Source: Globodera rostochiensis
Taxonomy: Eukaryota; Nematoda; Chromadorea; Rhabditida; Heteroderidae
NCBI GenBank assembly: GCA_018350325.1
Contig: JAEVLN010000008.1
Coordinates: forward strand, 3,057,794 to 3,121,793
Direction of reading: 5' to 3'
DNA length: 64,000 nt
Notes under the pieces: model-generated
What the model saw: only the letters and a program-made list of their open reading frames with translations
Told to the model about the DNA's origin: nothing
Database searches by the model: none
In this document: positions 6,197 to 62,737 of the stretch, piece by piece
Numbering within the stretch: position 1 is the first letter of the stretch
Layout of the letters: every line of letters starts with the position of its first letter
Translations under genes and position numbers: made by a program

Positions 6197-8682
6197 TCAA
6201 TATGAGTCTGTTTCCGCCCCCTCATTCTGTTGCGGCTCCTCACCTTCATTTTTGGTGTCCGTCGCCTCAACCAGCCCCGCCGGCGGCTCATCGTCCTCCA
6301 AATCGAGCAGAGCGCCGTGCTCCCCGTAATATTCGTCCTCCTCCATAATGCGCTTCAGCCGACGTCCGTCGCCGGCCCCTTCGCCGTCTGAACAGTCGTA
6401 GTAACTTGACGAATCGGAGTCGAACTCCACGCAACCGTCCACCTAAATAAATACCAAAAGTTATAAGAAAACAGTCCACGAAAAAGACCGGGAATTCCCA
6501 GTCCAGAACGGGACCGAATTGCAAAAAATGTGAACGGCATTTTATTTCATTATTAGAAAAGGCAGTTTTTAGAGAATCGACCGATCCCATTGTTTTTGAG
6601 TTTCAGAAATTTAATTGTTCACGGCTAACCAATGCTCGCTCACCTTGACCGAGACGGTCTCCAATTCATCTTCTCCATCCCCCTTCTCCGGCTGCAAATG
6701 CTCGTCCTTCGTGTCCACCTCGTCCATGTTCAGTTTCTGGACCAGCTTCTCAAGGCCCTCTGTCCCCTCCGTCTTCGCTGGTGCCGTCTCTTCCGATGCC
6801 GTCGCTGACGACGTCACAATTGTCTTCGACTGTCCCCCAACCTCCTCCCCACAACTGCCGTTGTCCTCCTCCGGCGTCTCCACCACTTCTTCGTCATCCT
6901 CTTCCTCTGAACTCTCCGATCGCGGGTTCACCACCACCGGCGACGTAGCGGCAGGAGAGCCCCCAACACTGTTCGATGACAAAAGTTTGGCTGAAAAATA
7001 AGAAATTTTAACACAAATCCCCATTACTCCCATCAGATGGTGCCAATTTCGCATGTTTCGGTCACCAAATTTGGTTTTGGATGTAAATGCCGGTGCCATC
7101 CCCGTCCCGGACCAATCAGTGCCTCTCACATCGAAGCTGCACTTGCGCCTTCACTGTAGACACGGGCACCGGCAAGGGCACTACCACCAGCGGCTTCTTG
7201 TTGCCCGCGGTTGTAGCCTTCTTGCGTTGATGCTGCTCTTGTTGTCCATCACTGACTAAGCCGGCGGCGGCGACGACGTCTTTGAGCGGTTGCTGTTGTT
7301 TCTGTTGTCGATGATGTTCATCTCCCGTGCCCTCCTCGTCCTTCTGCTCCTCTTTCCCACCGTCTTTTCCTCGCTCCTCCTCCGCATTCTTCTCTTCTTC
7401 ATTCACATCATTTTCCTTCTCTTCATCGTCCTCACCCGTCTCCACGTCATCATCCTCCGATTGTCCACCCTCGTACGGCTTGGTAAACACGTCAAAACTG
7501 CTGTTTTCGTTGGGCGATACGGTGACGGCTGAAACGACGCCAACGCCGCCCGACCGCTCCTGAGAGGTGGTACGACGGAAAGTGTAGTTGACCACGCGTG
7601 GCACTAAACACACCGGAGGTGTCGTCGAATTGTCACTTACCCCAATTGTAAGCCAGGCCAAGGGCTTGAAAAAAAGAGGACCCAAGCGCACTTTTTGTGC
7701 AATTGTACCAAAATTTTCAAAATTTACACCGGTTGTAATAAAAATGTCAAAAACAAAACAATTTTCCATTTTCTCATCATAATTTATGAGTTTAAAAAGT
7801 CAAGGCTTAAAATAATGTAATGGTTTTTTTGTCAAAAAATTTCCGATTTGAATGCCTATCGAAGTATTTGTCAGCAGAACCAACCGCTTTGCGCTGCCTT
7901 CTTTTTGGCCTCCACGTGCATTCTCTTCTCACAGTCCGCCAACATGTGGCCCTCGTTTTTGCAGTAAAAGCAGACAACTTAAACGGGGGAAGAATTAAAT
8001 TATTCAAAAGAAAAATATTTGTCGAATTATGGCACAAAAATTATTCAAAAATTCTAAGACCAAATGTCTTCTTTTCTTATGGCACATTAAAGCGATAGAA
8101 TCGCCAAAAATACCAAATATCCCCGAGTTTCTGGCCTTGTCCCTGGCCTGAACAAACAATCGGGGATGGATGTGCCAGGCGGGGACCTCCCCGCTTTTCC
8201 TACTTGATCAGATCTGTCGGATTTAACTCACAAAAAATTTTCAGTTTTGGAGTTTTCTCTCATCTTCTAAAGCCCAAAATTTCGGGATTTTTAGGTGGAA
8301 AATGTCGAGAATGGGCAGTCACCCGTTGAGCAGTTCGACCTTTTATTTACAAACAAAGAAAGAATGAATGAAAACCTGGTTGTTTCCTGGCAACAATGTG
8401 ATGATGTTCCTTCTGATTATGATGGACTATTAGCGGCGGATGTTGTTGCTGGAGTCGTTCCGCCGGCTGTTTCTCCAGACTCTCCTTCGACTCCTCCTTC
8501 TTCGTCTGCTCGTCCTTTTGGATGTCCTTCTTCGTCTGCTCGTCCTTTTGGATGTCCTTCTTCGGCTGCTCGTCCTTTTGGATGATGGCCATCATCTGCT
8601 GACTTTCGTTGATGCCAATTTGATTGCTGATGTTGGGCCGCTTCTTCGGCACAAAACCACCGCCTCTGCCGCGTCCGGACAT
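6197..8682 (-). CDS. acidic CCHC zinc-knuckle protein of unknown function
   Basis: Read on the minus strand from the ATG at 8682. The N-terminus begins MSGRGRGGGFVPKKRPNISN, a Gly/Arg-rich basic start. A near-perfect three-fold repeat of nine residues (QKDEQTKKDI type, 27 bp at about 8505-8585) follows. An exon at about 7880-7975 carries a single zinc knuckle CFYCKNEGHMLADC, matching CX2CX4HX4C. Exons at about 7116-7600 and 6640-7000 encode long Glu/Asp/Ser/Gln-rich low-complexity tracts, and the last exon (6197-6442) ends EEPQQNEGAETDSY. A zinc knuckle plus basic and acidic tails suggests nucleic-acid binding, but no family was recognised. Several junctions are tentative because low-complexity sequence hides frame signals. 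Confidence 0.7.
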
Positions 8683-9261: not shown

Positions 9262-12200
9262 ATGGTCCAATTCGTCGGGTTGAAAATTGCGGGGGTCCGG
9301 AGCATCGGGGACACGCCGCAGTGCATTAATTTTCTGACCCCTCTGACAATTATCCAGGGACTCAATGGGACGGGAAAAACGGTACCCCCCCCCCTTTTCC
9401 TCTGTTTGGTAATTGTTCTGCATTTTGCATTTAGACGATAATTGAGGCATTGAACTACGTCACTACGGGTGCTTTGCCGGCCGGCAAAATGCAAACATTT
9501 ATTCACAATGCACAGGTAAATGCCACAGTCCAGCACTCTCGTTGTTGGTGGGTTATCTGCCCGCAATAGCAAAATTTTAAATTTAAGTGAGTTAAAAATG
9601 GAAACATTTTTGCGAAAAAATTCCGTCGGATTTCCATTTTCCCAAAAATCTATACAAAAAAATTACTACACTTCTTGGAAGTTTCAAATACTGCTTAAAA
9701 AGAATTCAAGATTTTTCGGCCGAATGAAGAAAGTTGTTCAGATTGCCAACACAAGTCGAGTGGACGCTCTCGTGCAGCTCGACTTTCGGGACATCAAAGG
9801 GAACAAATGCACCGCGACAAAACGAATGAACGCGAGCACAAGTCACACTGTGCGTTCCGTTCAGTTTTATGCCAATGCCAAAACTTCCGTTGTTTCATGC
9901 AATTGCTTCCCCTTCCAGAAAAGGAAGCAATTTTATGCAAATTATTCCCCGTTACTCCCAAAAAAATAGAAACTGAAATTTTGAGTTGCGCATCGTCGTC
10001 CGAACTCTGTCAATTGCTTGATCGACGTTTGTCTTTTTCAGGGCAAGTTGTCCACAAAGTCGGATGAGTTTACGCTGAAAATTGTGGACAAATTCGGCAA
10101 CCTAAAGAGCATTTCGTCCAAAATTTGCGACTTCAACAAGGAGGTTTGTCCAAGTTGGGAGGGGTGGGGGCTTGAATTTTCGGCATTTTTTTAAGATGTT
10201 GAACCTTCTCGGCGTGCCGAAAGCCGTTTTGGAGCATGTGCTGTTTTGTCACCAGGAGGAGGCCAATTGGTGAGGCGAGTGAAATGATTGGAGTCCAACG
10301 CCGGGGCGGACGCCTCGGAAATCCGCCAAAAATTAAACTCCAAACTTTTAAGGCCTTTGTCCGAGCCGAAAGAGTTGAAAGTGCGCTTTGATGCGATCTT
10401 CGAGGTGACCAAATACGTCAAAGCGTTGGACAACATCAAAAAAACCATCAAAGAATTGGTGGGGAAAAAATTTATGCAAAATTTTTTCTTAATTTTGAAA
10501 AATTGCCCCTAAATGAATTTTTTTCCCCCAAAATTTCAGGGAGTGCAAATTCAGCTGATCGACAAGGAATTACCGCACTTGGAAAATAACACGAGGGCAC
10601 GCGCTGACGTCGGTTTTTTTTTATTTATTTATATTTTTTTGTGTCAAATTCGGAATTTTTTCTTCACATTTTCAGCTTCGTCTCCGCTACGACGAGACAT
10701 TGACAGCACTGAAGCACAACCGAAAGTCCATTGAGCAGAAGTTGAAGGAGGAACGGGAAACAGTGGACAAAGAGTTGCTCATCATCCGCAAACAGCTCGA
10801 AATGGCGGTGAAGTGCAACCACGAATTTGGTTGGTTGACATTTAGTTATGCAATATTTGGCTAAACAATTATAGCAGAAGAAATCCTCGAAAGTTTTTAA
10901 AATAATTTTTGAATGATTTTTTAGATGTCATCCAGGGCCAAATAAATGCGCAAACGCGTTTCCTGGACGGAATGCCCCCGTTGACGTACAAAGACTCGCG
11001 GGAGCAGCTCCAACAGTCGATCGATGAGGTGAGTTTATTCATGGTTTAATCCATGTTTAATGTTTCTGTTCCAAAAAGATCCTACATAAAAACTCCTTTT
11101 TTAAATTTGTTACAATTTAAAAATTGTGAATAATTTTTGTAGCTGAAACGTTCTGCCTCCGTTCGGGAGGCGGACGAGCTTCGCGCGTCCGTTGTGCGCC
11201 AAGTGCAAAGCATCGCCTTCGAGATGAACCAGTGCAAGAAGCTCGAGGAGGCCTACCGGACCAAGCAGATGCAGCACGAGTCCAGACTGATGGTGGGGTG
11301 GAGGATTACTTATTGTATATTTGGGGGGGGGGGGGGGTATGGGAATGATCATTTTGTAGAAAAACGGCTGGTTTTGATTTTTCGATCATTCTGTTTTCAG
11401 ATGATCGAAAATCGTGAAAGCGAATACTCCACCCTTTTGGAGCAGTACGCCCGCAAATACGACGTTACGGGTGTGACTAAAATATTAGCACAATTTTATA
11501 ACGCAAAATTTTTTTTGCGATTTTAAGCTGGACCAAATTTTGTTGAACAATTGCGCGAAAAAGTGCAGAACATCGAGGAGAAACGAACATATTTTGTGGT
11601 GATTTTAAATTTAAGCATTTAAATTTGTTTTTGTCAAAATTTAAAATCTCTTCTTTTCTGTTATTGTTTGTTCACAGGCAGATACCGATGGACAGCAGAA
11701 ACAGTTGGCCGAACACATTGAAAAGCTTCGGTTCAACATGGCACAGCTGAACAGCAACAGCACCACGAAGAGGCAGGAATGTGCCAAACTGTCCCAAGCC
11801 ATCGCCTCGGCGGAGAGGGAACTGCGCTCGCTGGGCCCAACCACGCAAATGTGTGACAAAAAACGGCAGAAATAATTACAAAAATCGGGTCAAATTTGGC
11901 TTTTTCCTTTTTCTAGCGTTGACAAGCTGACCCAGGACATTGTGAAGTGGGAGTCGCAGTTGAAGCAGCTCAGCGACTTCTCTCTGTTGGACGACGTGTG
12001 GCAAAGTCTGCAGGGCCTCCAGGCATGCAAGCATGTTTCATAAAATGGATTATTGTTTGATTGAAGACGGATCTGAACACACTGCGCATGGACATGATGG
12101 AGCTGGCCAGCAGTGGCGGAGATGAGGGCGTGGTAGGCAAGGCGACCGCACTGCTGGAGAAGGCAGGCGACAAGTTGGACCTGTCTATGGAGCACATTGG

Positions 12201-14804
12201 GACGTTGAAGCGCCGTGTACAGCTCAGCAACCAGGTGGGTCATTACCATAAAACACAAAATAGTTCTGAATATTAGACGAAAGAGTGTTTTTTCTATGTT
12301 TTCAACTTCAGCTGGCGGAGTTCAAGGATCGACGGGCGGCGGCCAGCGAAAAGGCAATTCAAGTGGAAACAATCCGTGAGAGCATTGGGGAGAAGTCGGA
12401 GCAGATCAAGCAGCTGGAGCAGCTCATTGCCACGGCTGGCCACGAGTTGCCTGAGGTGGAGCGGCAGCTGCGCGCCATGGAGCGTTCCAAACAGGCAACC
12501 AAACAAAAAATGCCAATTTTCATCCATCCCTCCCAACTCCGCCCATAGTTAAGGAATTGGACGCGTCGGTTCACCAGCAATTGCGCAGAATGGCACTCGA
12601 AGTAGACGGCATTAATGGTGCGCTGGAAAAGATTGCGGAGCTGGGCGAGTCCAACGAGCGCGACCGGCTGAGCATGTCGGCCACACCCACCGACTTTCGC
12701 GAAATGGTGACTAAAGTTGGGGTTATTTTGACCAACAAAAAATCGATCCAGGCTGATCAGTCGGGTCAGCCTAGACAAATTTCCGTTAAAAACTGTCAGT
12801 GTTGATATTTCAAGCTTTTCAGTTTGAGGAGCAAAAATTGCGTTTGGAAAATTTGGCATGTCGTAAAAGTCAGTTGGAGAAACAGTTGGACGGCGACGAG
12901 GGCAAGAAGCACCAATTGCGGACTTTGGAGGATCAGTTGAGGCGCATGGAAATGGAGGAGCAGGTGGCATTTTTAAAAAAAGCTTTTTTAGGCATTTCCC
13001 TCTCTTTTTTCAGCTCGAAAAGTACAAAAAACAGCTGGAGGATGCCAAAGAGAACGCCACGATCAAAGGCACCGAAAATTTGATGGAGCTAAGGAAAAAG
13101 GTGGCCACTTTTTTGTTTGGGCCTTAAGGCCTCAGCAACAAAAACTAAAAAAGAAATTAAATTATTTTGGTGTTTTTTTTTTGCGGTCTCTCTCTCTTTT
13201 CAAAGATTTGATCTTCTCCAAAAATGAATGCATTTATTCCATGAAATTTCAGGAACAAACGGTGGGCCAACGGGCGGTCGAAGTGAACAATCGCATTCAG
13301 CAGAAGACGGGCGAGCAGTTGCAGTTGAAGCGCAAGGTGGAAGAGCTGAGGGCGCAGCTGGAGGAGACGCGCTATGCCAACGCGCAGAAGCTGTACGTGG
13401 ACAAGTTGGTGGAACGCAACGTCACCTCGGCGTCGATTGGTGTGAGTGAGTTGAGCGAACTGCGCAAAAAGCAGTCCCTGACACGCAGTGTGGAACTGCA
13501 CACTGACTTATCTTTTTTTTTGTTACAGGATTTGGAACGCTATTACAAGGTTGTGGACAATGCCATAATCAACTTTCATCAGCAGAAGATGGAGCAGATC
13601 AACCAAATTTTGCACGAGCTGTGGATCCGCGTCTACCAAGGCAACGACATCGACACGATCAAAATCAAGTTGGCATGGCTTAACACCTCCAAATTTCGAT
13701 CAATTTGCTGCAATTAGTCAAAAAATATCTCAATTCATCGTTCACTTTTTGATTTGTTTATTTCGAATTTGATCTGCTATGCTTGCATCGATGATCTGAT
13801 CACATGGAGAAACATTTGTGACATTGAGTTAAACACACACTTCCTTTTCCATTTATTTTGAGGTCGCAGCCCGTGTCGGGCGTGGAGAAGAAGAAGTCGT
13901 ACGACTACAGCGTCGTGATGACCGTCGACCAGGTGGACATTGACATGCGCGACCGGTGCAGCGCCGGACAAAAAGTCAGTCAGTCAGAAATTGGCCGTCG
14001 AGCAGAAAAACATTGGCCGAGGGGGGAATATGGACGAAAAACATGCCAAAATGATTTTTTATGCCGCATTTTGTTTAGGTGTTGGCATCAATTCTGATCC
14101 GGATTGCGCTTGCCGATGTTTTTGCGGGGAACTGCAGAATTTTGGCGCTCGGTAAACGCTGCTTTTGTTTTGTTTTTTAGTTATTTTTTATTTTTAGACG
14201 AGCCCACAACAAATTTGGACGAAGATAAGGTGAGGGTGAATTTGCTGTTGTTGAACTGGATTCAAAAGGTCCGTTTGATTGCATTTTAACGTGTATAAAT
14301 GAGATCATCAGTCTGATCGAACCCGGAGTTTTGCATTTGCAAAAATCAAATTTAAAAACTTTCTTTTAGGTTGAAAACATCGGCTCGATGCTGAAGAGTT
14401 TGATCCAAATTCGCAAGCCAACAACGACGGGCGGAGCGATTGGAGCCCAACGCATTTACGAGGCGGACGATTTGGACTTTGAGGAAGACGACGGCGATGA
14501 ACTTGCTGGCGCTGCGGCGGAAAGGACACGGGCGGCAGAAGAGGACACAAATGACGGTGACGACGGCATGGAGGTGAACCGCTCGCTGCAGCTGATCGTC
14601 ATCACGCACGACCGTCGCCTTGTCGAGCATCTGCACTTGGCGTGCCGACCCGAGTACATCTACAGTTTGGCCAAGGATGAGAACGGCGTGTCGCACATCA
14701 AAGAGCACAGTCAGATAACGACGAACGCGGACCTCGACTTGTTCGCGTACGTTTTGCGGCGGTCGGTTCGAAGCGTCGTCAATTTGCTCTTTCTGTTTAG
14801 TTGA
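9262..14804 (+). CDS. rad-50: RAD50-like SMC-family DNA repair ATPase lacking a visible zinc hook
   Basis: ATPase of the MRE11-RAD50-NBS1 complex for double-strand break repair. The ATG is at 9262. Exon 1 ends in the Walker A motif (IIQGLNGTGKT) and continues as TIIEALNYVTTGALPAGK in exon 2. The exon near 10195 gives LLGVPKAVLEHVLFCHQEEA, a RAD50 hallmark. About 15 coiled-coil exons follow (10.3-13.5 kb). The distal head is clear: QQKMEQINQILHELWIRVYQ, the signature DRCSAGQKVLASILIRIAL, Walker B LALDEPTTNLDEDK and LQLIVITHD. I estimate about 1,075 residues against about 1,300 in human RAD50. No CXXC appears at the coiled-coil apex (see findings). An acidic insert (FEEDDGDEL) lies before the ITHD motif. 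The last junction is ambiguous: a GT donor near 14750 joined to 14801 would give a different short tail. Confidence 0.9.
12023..12066 (+). other. probable GC-AG intron in RAD50
   Basis: The coding frame runs to GLQ, then hits an in-frame stop, and resumes at TDLNTLRMDM. Joining cag|gcatgc (donor at 12023) to attgaag|acg gives a 44-nt GC-AG intron in phase 0. The alternative is a GT-AG intron of about 32 nt starting at the gtttca 11 nt further on, which would keep ACKH in the protein. That would be unusually short. Confidence 0.5.
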
Positions 14805-15178: not shown

Positions 15179-17690
15179 TCATTTTACACGAACACAATGG
15201 ACAAACTGTCGGGAACGAGCACGCCTCTCCACCAGAATGTGATAGCCTTTGGATACGTCGCCCTGACTGTGCCATGTGTTCGGAAGCTGCAAAAGCAAAA
15301 GTTTCTGGGCATTACTCCTGGCAATGGTTGCTGACCGACCAGATAATCGGGATTTGTTTTGGTCACTCTCGGCACCCAAAATCGAATGAGTCGCGACTTG
15401 ACCCATCGGAAGAAAAGTGACGGGTCGAGCTCCGGCGGCACGTGTTGACGGAACCCGTCGTTGCTCATTAAATGTGCGTCCGGGCCCAGCTGAAGTGCAG
15501 CGTTCAGAATGAACAGGTCGTCATGCATTCTGTATATATACGGGAAGCGTAAGCAAAAATTATTTTTTATTTAATTCCCGTTTACATTTTTGCCTTTGAC
15601 TTGAACAAAAACGTTTATAAAATTGTGGCAGCACCGCCCGAACGCTCACAATAAGTCTCTGGAGCGCATGTCGAAAATGTGCACGCCCATTTCGTGGAAG
15701 GTGTTAATGAACGCGGGCGGAAAGGTGCAGCGAGTGACCGCCAAAATGGGCGAAAACCCGTTGCGCGAGAGCGAGGTGATGAAATGGCGCACATAGCCCA
15801 AATGTTGACTTTTTGGATAACCTTCCACCATGTTGAGCGCGTCGATCACCAACGGACGGCTTCAAAAACAGTGAAATCATCAGGCCCAAAACCGAAAAGC
15901 CCTTTGAACGCCCACAACACGGAACCGGAGAATAAAAAAGTCAAAAGATATTTTTGTGCCCTCTGGTCAATCAAATGGCCGGTTCTTGGAAATGTGCAAA
16001 ATGCTGTGCCCGGCTGAGTTGTGACGTCAGAATGTCAACTTTTACTTTCTTCGAATTTTGTCAACAGCCCCAAAAACCACAACACACATACCCCCGCTGT
16101 TGTTGGTGTTGACCACTTTTCTGTTTAATCTCTCTCAACTTGTCGGACAACGCAACAACCTCTGAAATTGGATATTTGTGTTGTGCGTGACTTGATCGGA
16201 TGATTCTTGCCGATCAATCAAATCACATGACCAAAAATCTCTCTCAAAAAAACAAAAACAAATTTCCCTACGGGCTGCAGTCGCGCGGTTCTTCGACTTG
16301 GCGCCTTCGTCCAACTCGTTGAGCATTGCGTCCCGCAGTTGGGCAAACTTTTGCGGCTCAATGGTGGTCGGGACCAATTTGGCCGCGCAATGCGAACACT
16401 CCAAGGTACTAAAAGAAGAAAAAAAAGCGATAAAATTGGGGGAAAACGATAATAATTAAATAATAAAATAATTTTACTGATGGTTCACACGGGCGCTGAC
16501 GTCGAGCCGCCATTTGCCATAACATCTGGACAAATTGAAAATCAAATTTCAGTCGAACTTTTTGGACAAAAAATCGCTTACGCTAAGGCCCTCTTCAAGT
16601 GTTGCGCGTCAAACTCGTTCAGCGGGTTGTCCAACAGCACCAGTTGGTCCATGTACATTTTCATCAGCCTGTCTCGGTCCTTCGAATTCTCTTGGAGACA
16701 ATGCAGAAAATGGGTCCAAAACGGATGCTTTGGCGCCACGGAGAAGGGCACTTTGGGCTCAATCTCATTGCACAATGTTCTGAAAACATTTTGTTCATTC
16801 AAAAAATATAGAACATGTATGTAATCGGCCTTTTGTACAAGTCGGCCTTTTGTCCAATTTTGTACAAGTCAGCCTTTTGTCCCATTTTGGACAGGTCGGC
16901 CTTTTGTCCAACTCGTGATAATACATTTTTATGGAAGTACATTCAAAATGCCTTACTCGAGTATGTTCAGCTGGTGCCTGGCCAGTGCCATGCCGGCTAA
17001 CAGATGGAAGCAGTCCGTCTTGAACACGGCCTTGGCCAACAACGGGCGCAGCCGATCCCAGCGTCCCTCGCACCCATCCAACAACAGCTCAACGGTGGCA
17101 GCGATGTGCTCGTTGTCGCCCAACTTTTCAGCGCACAGCTTGCGCAACACCGGCACACGCACGTGGTTGTCTTCCCCGTCCTGGCACCGGCCGCTGGCAA
17201 ATTTCTGTACAAAAATAAGAAAAAGTGCATGGAGGAGATCTGCTGATCCGATTTCCCAAGTCTAATGGTTGGGTGGGGTCTGTAGTTCTTTTCTTTGATT
17301 GTGTACAACTACGGACCAGTGCAAGCAGTTTGACGCCGTCCAGCAACAGTTTGTGATCGAGTTGGTCCGTTGCTATCAGCGTGTTCAACATGTCCAGACC
17401 CTGCTTCGCATTGTTGGCCTTGAAAAGAAAAAAAAAATACGGATTTTCAAAAGCGTTTAAAGTTTGACCAATCGGCTACAATGCTACCGCTCATAAATAA
17501 ATGTTAATGTCGCAAAATCACTGGCATAAAATGGAAAAATAATTTTGGGATTTCTTTAAAATGGTTAGAATGTATAAAAAACCTTGTAGTACTCGCTCAA
17601 CTCCATGCGTTGGCCCATGACGATCTTCGTCGGTTTGAGCAGATCAATCGTATCAACCCGAGGGTACAGCGTCTCCTCAGTTTCTGTCTG
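15179..17690 (-). CDS. mitochondrial ribonuclease P catalytic subunit (PRORP/MRPP3-like)
   Basis: Protein-only RNase P nuclease, expected in mitochondria, cutting 5' leaders from tRNA precursors. The C-terminal NYN-type nuclease domain is clear on the minus strand: VIDALNMVEGYPKSQHLGYV (first catalytic Asp) at about 15650-15850, then HDDLFILNAALQLGPDAH with the metal-binding Asp pair and MSNDGFRQHV at about 15400-15530. Using a 53-nt intron, the tail reads LPNTWHSQGDVSKGYHI and stops at 15179, matching the terminal Trp-His motif of the family. Exons at 16270-16400 (CSHCAAKLVPTTIEPQKFAQ, half of the structural zinc site), 16580-16800, 16960-17200 and 17330-17415 are helical and PPR-like. The most upstream exon seen is 17584-17690 (preceded by a 'ttcag' acceptor), so the start codon and targeting peptide are unresolved. 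Confidence 0.85.
16820..16915. repeat. intronic minisatellite in PRORP
   Basis: A roughly 28-bp unit built on tcggccttttgt followed by (a/c)caa(g/t) recurs about four times. It lies within an intron between PPR-type exons. Confidence 0.75.
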
Positions 17691-31589: not shown

Positions 31590-32372
31590 CTAGTCTGCGG
31601 CCGGTTCAGACGCCTCGGGTTTGGGCTCTTCGGTGACTGCTCCAGCGTCCTCAGCTTTGGGCTCGTCAGTGCCTGCTCCAGCGTCCTCAGCTTTGGGCGC
31701 GTCAGTGCCTGCTCCAGCGTCCTCAGCTTTGGGCGCGTCAGTGCCTGCTCCAGCGTCCTCAGGTTTGGTCTCTTCAGTGACGGCTCCAGCGTCCTCAGCT
31801 TTGGGCGCGTCAGTGCCTGCTCCAGCGTCCTCAGGTTTGGTCTCTTCAGTGACGGCTCCAGCGTCCTCAGCTTTGGGCGCGTCAGTGCCTGCTCCAGCGT
31901 CCCCAGTTTTGGTCTCTTCAGTGACGGCTCCAGCGTCCTCAGCTTTGGGCGCGTCAGTGACTGCTCCAGCGTCCTCAGTTTTAGGCGGCTCTGGAACTGC
32001 TTGGACCGGCTCAGTCTTGGGCTTCTCTGGAGCTGCTTGGACCGGCGCAGTCTTGGGCTTCTCTGGAGCTGGTTTGGCCGCCTCAGCCTTGGGCTTCTCT
32101 GGAGCTGGTTTGACCGCCTCGGTCTTGGGCTTCTCTGGAGCTGGTTTGGCCGCCTCAGCCTTGGGCTTCTCTGGAGCTGGTTTGGCCGCCTCAGCCTTGG
32201 GCTTCTCTGGAGCTTTGACCGCATCCTTCTTCGCCGACTTCTCTTTGGCCGGCTCACCCTTCTTGCTCTTCTTCGTCGAATCTTTCCGGCTCTTCTTCTT
32301 GTCCTTGGATTTTCGCTTCTTCTTCTCTTCTTTTTCGGCGCGGGCCTTCGCTTCGTCTTCCTCCTTCGTCAT
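31590..32372 (-). CDS. Lys/Pro/Ala-rich repetitive protein of unknown function
   Basis: Single-exon minus-strand frame of 260 residues from the ATG at 32372. The first 50 residues are strongly basic (KKRKSKDKKKSRKDSTKKSK). The centre repeats a unit of the form PEKPKAEAAKPA about six times. The C-terminal part alternates EDAGAVTEETKP and EDAGAGTDAPKA blocks about ten times and ends in KPEASEPAAD. No signal peptide or known domain is seen. The charged Pro/Ala repeats suggest a disordered, possibly highly expressed structural or chromatin-associated protein, but no function can be assigned. It is transcribed away from the REEP-type gene across a shared promoter region with its own TATA box. Confidence 0.75.
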   Translation of the reverse strand: MTKEEDEAKARAEKEEKKKRKSKDKKKSRKDSTKKSKKGEPAKEKSAKKDAVKAPEKPKAEAAKPAPEKPKAEAAKPAPEKPKTEAVKPAPEKPKAEAAKPAPEKPKTAPVQAAPEKPKTEPVQAVPEPPKTEDAGAVTDAPKAEDAGAVTEETKTGDAGAGTDAPKAEDAGAVTEETKPEDAGAGTDAPKAEDAGAVTEETKPEDAGAGTDAPKAEDAGAGTDAPKAEDAGAGTDEPKAEDAGAVTEEPKPEASEPAAD

Positions 32373-32522
32373 TGTTTGTCGACTGAAATGTGAAAAAAAT
32401 GAAAGTATTGTTGTTAAGAAATCAAAAAAAAAAACTCACGCGATTGAAGTTGATGAGCACAGATGTCGTTTGAACGGAATCAGAAGTTGTCAAAACAGTA
32501 CATAAAGTGTGATTTTGCCCTC

Positions 32523-32530
32523 CTTTTATA
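32523..32530 (-). promoter_or_regulatory. TATA box for the minus-strand repeat-protein gene
   Basis: Minus-strand TATAAAAG about 150 bp upstream of the ATG at 32372. It is the same octamer as the plus-strand box 68 bp away. Confidence 0.65.
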
Positions 32531-32597
32531 GTAAGGGAAGTCTGGTTAAACAATCAAAGTTAACGATTTTGCTAAAATTCTAAACAGCAGCGGAAGG

Positions 32598-32605
32598 TAT
32601 AAAAG
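32598..32605 (+). promoter_or_regulatory. TATA box for the REEP-type gene
   Basis: Plus-strand TATAAAAG about 160 bp upstream of the ATG at 32766. A pyrimidine-rich initiator-like stretch (atttccagtcatctc) lies about 30 bp downstream. Confidence 0.65.
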
Positions 32606-32765
32606 AGCACTTTTAGCTACATGTCTCCTCATTTCCAGTCATCTCTAAATTGATAAGGTGACGTTCATTTTTTTTATTCCCTTTTAACAGTTTTACAATT
32701 TTCCCTTTTCAGCAGAGCACACAATCGAAGCCAAGCGAAGCAACCGAACACAGAAGACATTGAAG

Positions 32766-33882
32766 ATGGCAGACGAACCAACGACACCGAAAACGGAGGA
32801 AGCAACGGACAAAGCGGACGAACCGGCGGCCAAAGCGGACGAACCGGCGGCCAAAGCGGACGAACCAGCAGCCAAAGCGGACGAACCGGCGGCCAAAGCG
32901 GACGAACCGGCGGCCAAAGCGGACGAACCGGCGGCCAAACCAGACGAGCCCGTGGAGAAAGTGGACGAACCGGCGGCCAAACCAGACGAGCCCGTGGAGA
33001 AAGTGGACGAACCGGCGGCCAAACCAGACGAGCCCGCGGAGAAAGTGGAGGAATCGGTGGAGAAGATGGATGGCTCATCGTCGAAGGGAGACGAATCTTC
33101 AGTTACATCGGGTGGACAATCGTCGCAGACGGGCCAATCTTCAACGACGTCGGATGAATCGCCCGTGAAGAAGGAAGTAGCAGAAAAGAAGACGGATGCA
33201 TCTAAAGCGAAGAAAGCCGAATCGTCGTCATCTGCTGTTCGTGGAGTGCGTCCTCAGAAGCGTGAAGTCCCGATCAAGAGCCTCAAGGACGTCCGCCCGG
33301 TGCTGCAGGAAGCACTCAAACAGTTGAAGCATCCGCTGATCAAGAAACTGGAGGCGCAGACCGGCATGAAGCGCGAAATGGTGAGCAATTTTTTGGGCGT
33401 CGCATTTTGTCGTTCATCTGAAACTTTTCAGCTTTTCTACATCGCATGCGGTCTCATCGCGTTCTTCTTGATGTTCGGCCCCTGCAACGAAGCGATCTGC
33501 AACCTGATCGGTTGGTAATTGTTGAGGAAAGAATGTACAATCATTTATCTTCACTGTTTCAGGCATCGTCTACCCGGCACATCAGAGTTTGATGGCAGTC
33601 CGCAGCAAGACCAAAGGTAGGCGGCTCTCATTGCATTCGTTTTGATTCAAAAATCGAATTATTTCAGCGGATGACACACAATGGCTGATGTATTGGTGCT
33701 CTTTCGCTCTGTTCTCCGTGTGCGACTTCGTCCTTACTCCGTTCGTTGGGCCGCTGTTCGTGCTTCTGAAGGTGACCTGCTTGCTGTACCTGGCTGTTCC
33801 CCAGACGTACGGCGCCCACAACATCTACGTGAGCTGTGTGGACCCGCTGATGGACCGGGTGGCAAAACGCATCAAAATCTGA
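32766..33882 (+). CDS. REEP/TB2-DP1-HVA22 family ER-shaping protein with a long acidic repeat N-terminus
   Basis: Four exons: 32766-33380, 33432-33510, 33563-33616 and 33668-33882. The C-terminal 135 residues form a TB2/DP1/HVA22 domain: DVRPVLQEALKQLKHPLIKK, hydrophobic LFYIACGLIAFFLMFG, GIVYPAHQSLMAVRSKTKAD, DTQWLMYWCSFALFSVCDFV, KVTCLLYLAVPQTYGAHNIY. Proteins with this domain (REEP5/6, yeast Yop1) insert hairpins that curve tubular ER membrane. Unusually, about 150 residues precede it. They start with six KADEPAA heptads, continue with 14-residue KPDEPVEKVDEPAA units, and end in a Ser/Thr/Lys-rich linker. This N-terminus is not typical of REEP5/6 and is likely disordered and cytosolic. The gene is divergent from the Lys/Pro/Ala repeat gene. 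Confidence 0.88.
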
Positions 33883-62007: not shown

Positions 62008-62737
62008 ATGTAATGAATTGGCTCTTTTTTCGTTTACATGAATTGGCTCTTTTCTTTTTCGTTTACATGAATTGGCTCTTTTCTTTTTCGTAAATGAATT
62101 GGCTCTTTTTTCGTTTACATGAATTGGCTCTTTTCTTTTTCGTAAATGAATTGGCTCTTTTCTTTTTCGTAAATGAATTGGCTCTTTTTTCGTAAATGAA
62201 TTGGCTCTTTTCTTTTTTCGTTTACATGAATTGGCTCTTTTCTTTTTCGTAAATGAATTGGCTCTTTTCTTTTTCGTAAATGAATTGGCTCTTTTCTTTT
62301 TTCGTTTACATGAATTGGCTCTTTTCTTTTTTCGTTTACATGAATTGGCTCTTTTCTTTTTCGTAAATGAATTGGCTCTTTTCTTTTTCGTAAATGAATT
62401 GGCTCTTTTCTTTTTCGTAAATGAATTGGCTCTTTTCTTTTTCGTAAATGAATTGGCTCTTTTTTCGTTTACATGAATTGGCTCTTTTCTTTTTCGTAAA
62501 TGAATTGGCTCTTTTCTTTTTCGTAAATGAATTGGCTCTTTTTTCGTTTACATGAATTGGCTCTTTTCTTTTTCGTAAATGAATTGGCTCTTTTCTTTTT
62601 CGTTTACATGAATTGGCTCTTTTCTTTTTCGTAAATGAATTGGCTCTTTTCTTTTTCGTAAATGAATTGGCTCTTTTTTCGTTTACATGAATTGGCTCTT
62701 TTCTTTTTCGTAAATGAATTGGCTCTTTTTTCGTAGA
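62008..62737. repeat. minisatellite, about 27 units of a 27/30-bp motif
   Basis: Each unit starts gaattggctctttt, usually continues ctttttcgt, and ends either aaat or ttacat. About 27 copies of ttggctc are counted. The two unit types alternate irregularly. Because most units are multiples of three, part of the array reads through as a Leu-Ala-Leu-Phe repeat, but no gene context supports translation. Confidence 0.92.

Follow-up and report, generated by a model that had tools for sequence, protein, structure and literature searches.

The DNA analysed here, which we call the window, is a 64,000-nucleotide (64-kb) stretch of the nematode Globodera rostochiensis (contig JAEVLN010000008.1), and its gene of interest is rad50, encoding RAD50, a coiled-coil ATPase that repairs DNA breaks. 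Splicing of the 26 exons gives a protein of 1048 amino acids (aa) that matches a deposited G. rostochiensis RAD50 letter for letter (P0002; P numbers denote protein clusters). All introns have GT-AG borders apart from two with GC-AG (14 and 16), and the longest has 226 nucleotides (nt). The parts of the gene are listed below, with the basis of each assignment in brackets; profile positions refer to an alignment profile of hooked RAD50s that is described further on, and pLDDT is the predicted local distance difference test score of the structure model.

9262 to 14804, plus strand: rad50 of G. rostochiensis, 26 exons, 1048 aa (splicing gives P0002 exactly)
9262 to 10458, plus strand: exons 1-6, N-terminal ATPase head with Walker A GLNGTGKT and Q-loop FCHQE, residues 1-197 (motifs, Pfam AAA_23)
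10540 to 11850, plus strand: exons 7-13, ascending coiled-coil arm, residues 198-461 (inside profile block 1-481; mostly helix in the model)
11917 to 12022, plus strand: exon 14, residues 461-496, where the ascending coil passes directly into the descending coil, with the join at 11972/11975 (profile 481/777; codon 481 starts at 11975; intron-free join)
11948 to 11950, plus strand: codon of W472 (Trp in 5/5 Tylenchoidea sequences and in at most 2/16 hooked sequences)
11999 to 12001, plus strand: codon of W489 (Trp in 5/5 Tylenchoidea sequences and in at most 2/16 hooked sequences)
12067 to 12234, plus strand: exon 15, remainder of the new apex, residues 497-552 (predicted helix 483-510, turn 511-516, helix from 517)
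12109 to 12126, plus strand: predicted apical turn SSGGDE, residues 511-516 (model pLDDT below 50 at 512-515; counterpart in Meloidogyne incognita at 508-514)
12312 to 13441, plus strand: exons 16-20, descending coiled-coil arm, residues 553-803 (profile block, gene model, structure model)
13529 to 14804, plus strand: exons 21-26, C-terminal ATPase head with DRCSAGQK and LALDEPTTNLD, and a low-confidence insert at 940-992 (motifs, gene model, structure model)

The original prediction for this locus was of a RAD50 homologue with two intact ATPase heads and no visible zinc hook. Both heads are indeed intact in the spliced product, which contains the Walker A motif GLNGTGKT, the Q-loop FCHQE, the signature DRCSAGQK and the Walker B/D-loop LALDEPTTNLD, the last encoded across exons 23 and 24 and joined by splicing. 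A Pfam scan of P0002 gives AAA_23 at 87.9 bits, over the cut-off, and SbcC_Walker_B at 26.4 bits, slightly below its cut-off of 27. A first gene model of 1063 aa was dropped, its exon 16 donor being doubtful and its last exon a read-through, and the 26-exon model took its place. The profile alignment, the genome search with the window protein, the head tree and the coil identities were run with the first model, which differs from P0002 at the apex by one residue fewer upstream only, so that its join at 479/480 is 480/481 in P0002.

To our knowledge, the RAD50 zinc clasp is regarded as almost universal. The absence of a Cys pair from the apex is borne out here: CXXC occurs nowhere in the 1048 residues of the G. 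rostochiensis protein, and when the six-frame fragments (at least 15 aa) of the whole window are searched with a hook profile made from the apices of 33 hooked RAD50s, no match improves on E=0.78. In a left-out control, the profile was rebuilt minus seven hooked sequences from the nematodes Ditylenchus, Aphelenchus, Bursaphelenchus and Steinernema; at E≤10 it recovered all seven of these and none of 11 hookless or hook-degenerate proteins. The Pfam zinc hook family PF04423 was also tried; it has no match in the genome, and three of 14 control genomes were positive. Its silence was left unused because the hooked Aphelenchus protein goes unmatched at E≤0.01 and Ditylenchus P0009 falls below the cut-off.

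What is missing can be located with a full-length profile of 12 hooked RAD50s, which has 1294 positions and the hook at 668-671. Residues 1-479 of the window protein (first-model numbering) correspond to positions 1-481 and residues 480-938 to positions 777-1233, and the C-terminal end forms a third block beyond these. The first two blocks abut gaplessly, and the 295 hook-bearing positions between them (482-776) are absent, far more than the approximately 45 residues originally thought to have been replaced around the hook. The estimate of a protein about 240 residues shorter was close (1048 aa, compared with 1298 in C. elegans). The right-hand block starts with a motif of hooked RAD50s (D777 in 14/16 and D782 in 13/16 hooked sequences), and therefore represents the descending coil. 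The original prediction had placed the apex between 11401 and 12705; this can be narrowed to the join in exon 14 and a predicted Gly turn at 12109-12126. Approximately 885 nt are missing at the join, whose adjoining introns measure 66 and 44 nt. Since no intron exceeds 226 nt and the join lies within one exon, a hidden hook exon is impossible there, and a CXXC exon looked for between 11401 and 12705 has neither room nor a hook match in the window.

The same 481/777 break, within one position, is present in all five Tylenchoidea sequences examined, namely those of the window, G. pallida (P0003), Heterodera trifolii (P0004), M. incognita (P0006) and M. graminicola (P0007), so the break is not a matter of chance and the loss is common to related species. 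Three further clusters (P0001, P0005 and P0008) were kept out of the profile comparison, their gene models being duplicated or incomplete. These alignments show that approximately 295 apical positions including the hook are absent, that the heads are intact and that the junction is common to cyst and root-knot nematodes of three genera (Globodera, Heterodera and Meloidogyne). Judged by its sequence, the G. rostochiensis protein is an otherwise well-preserved RAD50 by orthology that lacks one defining feature, the CXXC hook.

In the NCBI taxonomy, Globodera belongs to the Heteroderidae and Meloidogyne to the Meloidogynidae, both within Tylenchoidea, and Ditylenchus belongs to Sphaerularioidea. 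A tree based on the heads only (33 sequences, 453 columns) groups the sequences by nematode lineage and unites the hookless Tylenchoidea in one clade (support 100/99), which lies beside the hooked Ditylenchus (85/82). Left out of the tree were the nematode sequences P0001, P0005, P0008, P0019, P0030, P0033, P0034, P0070 and P0076, and also P0077, P0096, P0104-P0108 and P0002, the last being the window's own protein.

The arms of the hooked profile span 468 and 423 positions; scaled in that proportion, the descending side of the Tylenchoidea join has 63 residues too many, and half of this excess places the expected turn near residue 512. In the AlphaFold2 model of G. rostochiensis RAD50, helices at 457-478 and 483-510 are followed by the turn at 511-516 and by a helix from 517. 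The M. incognita model, predicted from an alignment without any Heteroderidae sequence, has a helix at 483-507, a turn at 508-514 and a helix from 515. The modelled apex is thus helix-turn-helix with no globular part, and the monomer model predicts long helices and arms of near-equal length, for which we infer antiparallel pairing. The 16 best Foldseek matches of the G. rostochiensis model are all RAD50 chains (including 7zr1, 9q9k and 5da9), and the Pfam scan of P0002 contains no hinge family of the structural maintenance of chromosomes (SMC) type at E≤0.01. The new tip is accordingly predicted, for both Globodera and Meloidogyne, to be a simple hairpin of helices closed by a short turn. A short Gly-containing turn had been foreseen, and residues 511-516 match it; unforeseen was the predicted origin of the tip, from sequence that once belonged to the descending coil.

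We consider it probable that the gene is a RAD50 orthologue, detected in one copy, from which one ancestral event before the split of Meloidogyne and Heteroderidae removed the outer arm and the zinc hook. In such a deletion the outer coiled-coil arm would have been lost together with the hook, and some 60 former descending-arm residues are predicted to have refolded as the tip, half running up, then a Gly-containing turn, then half running down, which would make the two arms again near-equal in length. RAD50 dimerises also through its heads and MRE11. The complex would then be a two-headed ATPase with MRE11, its dimer held by the ATP-bound heads and MRE11, and the shorter arms may form a rod without a zinc clasp. 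The bridging of DNA ends could depend on oligomers formed head to head, on contacts between rods or on a weak contact, made by protein alone, at the new tip. The original prediction of a hookless RAD50 is therefore supported, but its statement that the MRE11-RAD50-NBS1 (MRN) complex must tether DNA ends in another way exceeds the evidence, since heads and MRE11 also dimerise RAD50. The DNA-binding domain of MRE11 (PF04152) is found in the same genome on contig C7 at 34.9 bits, over the cut-off, and in 0/14 control genomes.

Such a hookless mechanism appears workable because of passages in three papers. According to one, the main role of the hook is to tether RAD50 monomers so that the heads meet, a loss that more complex can offset, and ATM activation requires the RAD50 coils (PMC3642328). 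In passages of the others, a MukB hinge substitutes for the RAD50 hook in fission yeast (PMC6969161), and Rad50 heads form oligomers through a beta-sheet (PMC9061753). We believe the putative counterpart of this oligomerisation region in G. rostochiensis to be at approximately residues 104-134, from an alignment judged by eye.

Coil loss on both arms, mostly of paired lengths, is also found in RAD50s that retain the hook: Ditylenchus lacks 238 + 204 and 219 + 206 positions on its two arms, Steinernema carpocapsae 229 + 216, Halicephalobus 173 + 162, and Bursaphelenchus 112 + 98 and 115 + 109. The Bursaphelenchus gaps pair in length but lie approximately 50 positions away from where they would be expected, and S. 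hermaphroditum breaks the pairing (118 vs 41 positions). These proteins have lost middle coil and kept CPLC, whereas Globodera has kept the middle coil and lost the tip. The paired gaps, which are known from gene models only, look in the hooked models P0009, P0011, P0014, P0029, P0013 and P0017 as if selection balanced arm length.

The hook is also missing from the gene models of Aphelenchoides besseyi (P0012), Rhabditophanes B (P0026) and Parastrongyloides B (P0028), and in three Strongyloides B proteins the hook reads CKVC, CKKC or CENC, which the hook profile does not recognise. Strongyloidoidea have two RAD50 paralogues, of which A carries CPLC (P0016, P0019, P0021, P0022, P0101 and P0032) and B has a degenerate or lost hook (P0024-P0028); Rhabditophanes B is without profile positions 496-829. 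In A. besseyi, 37 unaligned residues stand at the break, and its sister Bursaphelenchus is hooked. Strongyloidoidea B and A. besseyi resemble Globodera in having intact head motifs, but their losses are separate on the head tree, Strongyloidoidea retain the hooked paralogue A, and the break of A. besseyi holds its unaligned stretch. The fewest hook-state changes on this tree are three, whether degenerate sequences are counted as hookless or left out. Hook losses in these nematodes seem to number at least three, of which two are known from gene models alone. A broader proposal, which we put forward tentatively and hold to be less likely than the single deletion itself, is that MRE11-RAD50 runs hookless across a whole animal lineage, in which a new zinc-free tip made from descending-arm sequence (kink, W472/F482/W489 and Gly turn) either self-dimerises or makes apical dimerisation dispensable, with at least three hook losses occurring alongside paired arm shortening.

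The main rival to the mechanism above is that the new tip serves as a dimerisation module of its own, without zinc, the conserved hairpin with the derived aromatic residues W472, F482 and W489 having taken over from the clasp, as an SMC hinge can do in yeast. The apex segment 460-499, which spans the join, shares 90% of its residues with Heterodera and 60% with M. incognita, compared with 70% and 33% for the ascending mid-coil, and a similar identity to M. incognita is reached within the coil only in the head-adjoining stretches; by these figures the new apex ranks with the best-conserved parts of the coil. W472, F482 and W489 are the same residue in 5/5 Tylenchoidea sequences and in at most 2/16 hooked ones, and between residues 162 and 835 there is no other Trp than W472 and W489, which lie on either side of the join. 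That an unrelated dimerisation module can stand in for the hook, as in the fission yeast passage (PMC6969161), also speaks for this explanation. On the other hand, the monomer models give a plain hairpin, Trp is not rare in RAD50 coils generally (1.81 per coil on average over the 77 proteins parsable by our coil rule), and conservation at the apex could equally reflect arm packing or partner binding. We therefore view a new clasp as a possible but rather unlikely explanation.

Gene decay, with MRN little used in these nematodes and hook loss as one step of degeneration, would fit the lost apical coil and the fast-evolving mid-coil (the 33% identity to M. incognita). It is hard to reconcile with a frame that is open over 26 exons and retains its catalytic motifs, with heads 83-84% identical between G. 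rostochiensis and M. incognita, and with the same architecture in three genera. Head distances from the ancestor of the nematode group are 0.59-0.64 in Tylenchoidea, among the shortest of the group (0.55-1.20 in 20 other sequences), and by this measure the Tylenchoidea heads are unaccelerated. Decay is in our judgement improbable.

Still less credence is due to a hook supplied by another gene or isoform, a second RAD50 or an alternative exon. Duplication does occur in related worms, as in the hooked and the degenerate or hookless paralogues of Strongyloidoidea, but the introns here are far too short for the missing 885 nt. A second, hooked RAD50 gene was also looked for, and no second RAD50 locus was detected in the 92.6-Mb genome with three RAD50 queries, although the searches score best candidates only and a strongly divergent copy could escape them. 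All 23 matches of the window protein, 12 of the 13 of the hooked Aphelenchus RAD50 and all 11 of the hooked Ditylenchus RAD50 fall in this rad50 locus. The lone outside match (contig C23, E=0.83) was rejected as a hook source, being simple-repeat sequence without CXXC, and so was the single hit of a 95-aa hook query (contig C19, E=0.113), which carries two stops and is not credible. Among the 100 protein matches listed, the eight Tylenchoidea clusters (P0001-P0008) contain no RAD50 hook; the CXXC motifs at residues 107-130 of P0007 belong to a fused upstream gene. An assembly or gene-model artefact, which the incomplete coil segments of several deposited nematode models might suggest, is the least probable explanation of all, because the junction lies inside one uninterrupted genomic exon, recurs in other species at the matching alignment position and joins arms of nearly equal predicted length.

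Several points weigh against a single ancestral deletion followed by hook-free function. The edge of the left block is soft, another profile extending it in some sequences to positions 522-544, and pairwise global alignments, run with cheap gap extension, split the missing part among several gaps; they were set aside and profile searches preferred. Genomic DNA was examined for G. rostochiensis only, and the remaining species are represented by deposited gene models, some of them faulty (P0001 is internally duplicated, P0007 is fused to another gene, and P0003, P0005 and P0008 have missing pieces). The sister position of Ditylenchus is backed by support of 85/82 only. The structures are monomer models of moderate confidence (pLDDT 79.3 and 76.5, predicted template modelling score 0.48), with arm pairing inferred. 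In yeast, a passage of one paper states, shortened coils compromise function (PMC11661359).

Outside rad50, four features of the window were noted in passing.

8495 to 8584: 30-bp unit in three copies, within an open frame of the minus strand that contains KDEQTKKDIQ-like repeats
15184 to 15570, minus strand: piece of a protein-only RNase P (PRORP) gene, convergent downstream of rad50 (27.8 bits, below the Pfam cut-off)
31613 to 33057: arrays with unit lengths of 36/72 bp and 21 bp, all divisible by three and so possibly coding
62012 to 62729: tandem array of a 27-bp unit, approximately 26.6 copies

Compared with the RAD50 of known MRN complexes (C. elegans rad-50 and human RAD50), the Globodera protein has orthologous heads, the same ABC-ATPase motifs and long helical arms, but it is without approximately 295 apical positions and the CPxC hook, its arms are about two-thirds as long, and its tip is predicted to be a plain hairpin. 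Passages on engineered hook mutants and hook-to-hinge chimaeras of yeast and human describe a RAD50 that likewise works clasp-free under some conditions (PMC3642328, PMC6969161); those are laboratory constructs, whereas the loss in Globodera is natural, clade-wide and coupled with shorter arms. At the level of titles and abstract openings, with supplements, most subscription journals and bioRxiv outside this scope, we found no description of a hookless animal RAD50. A natural, conserved RAD50 minus the hook and approximately one-third of the arm would offer a probe of which MRN tasks need an apical clasp, those in question being end tethering, ATM activation and meiotic break processing, and the hooked Ditylenchus and Aphelenchus proteins and the paired Strongyloides paralogues would provide built-in comparisons.

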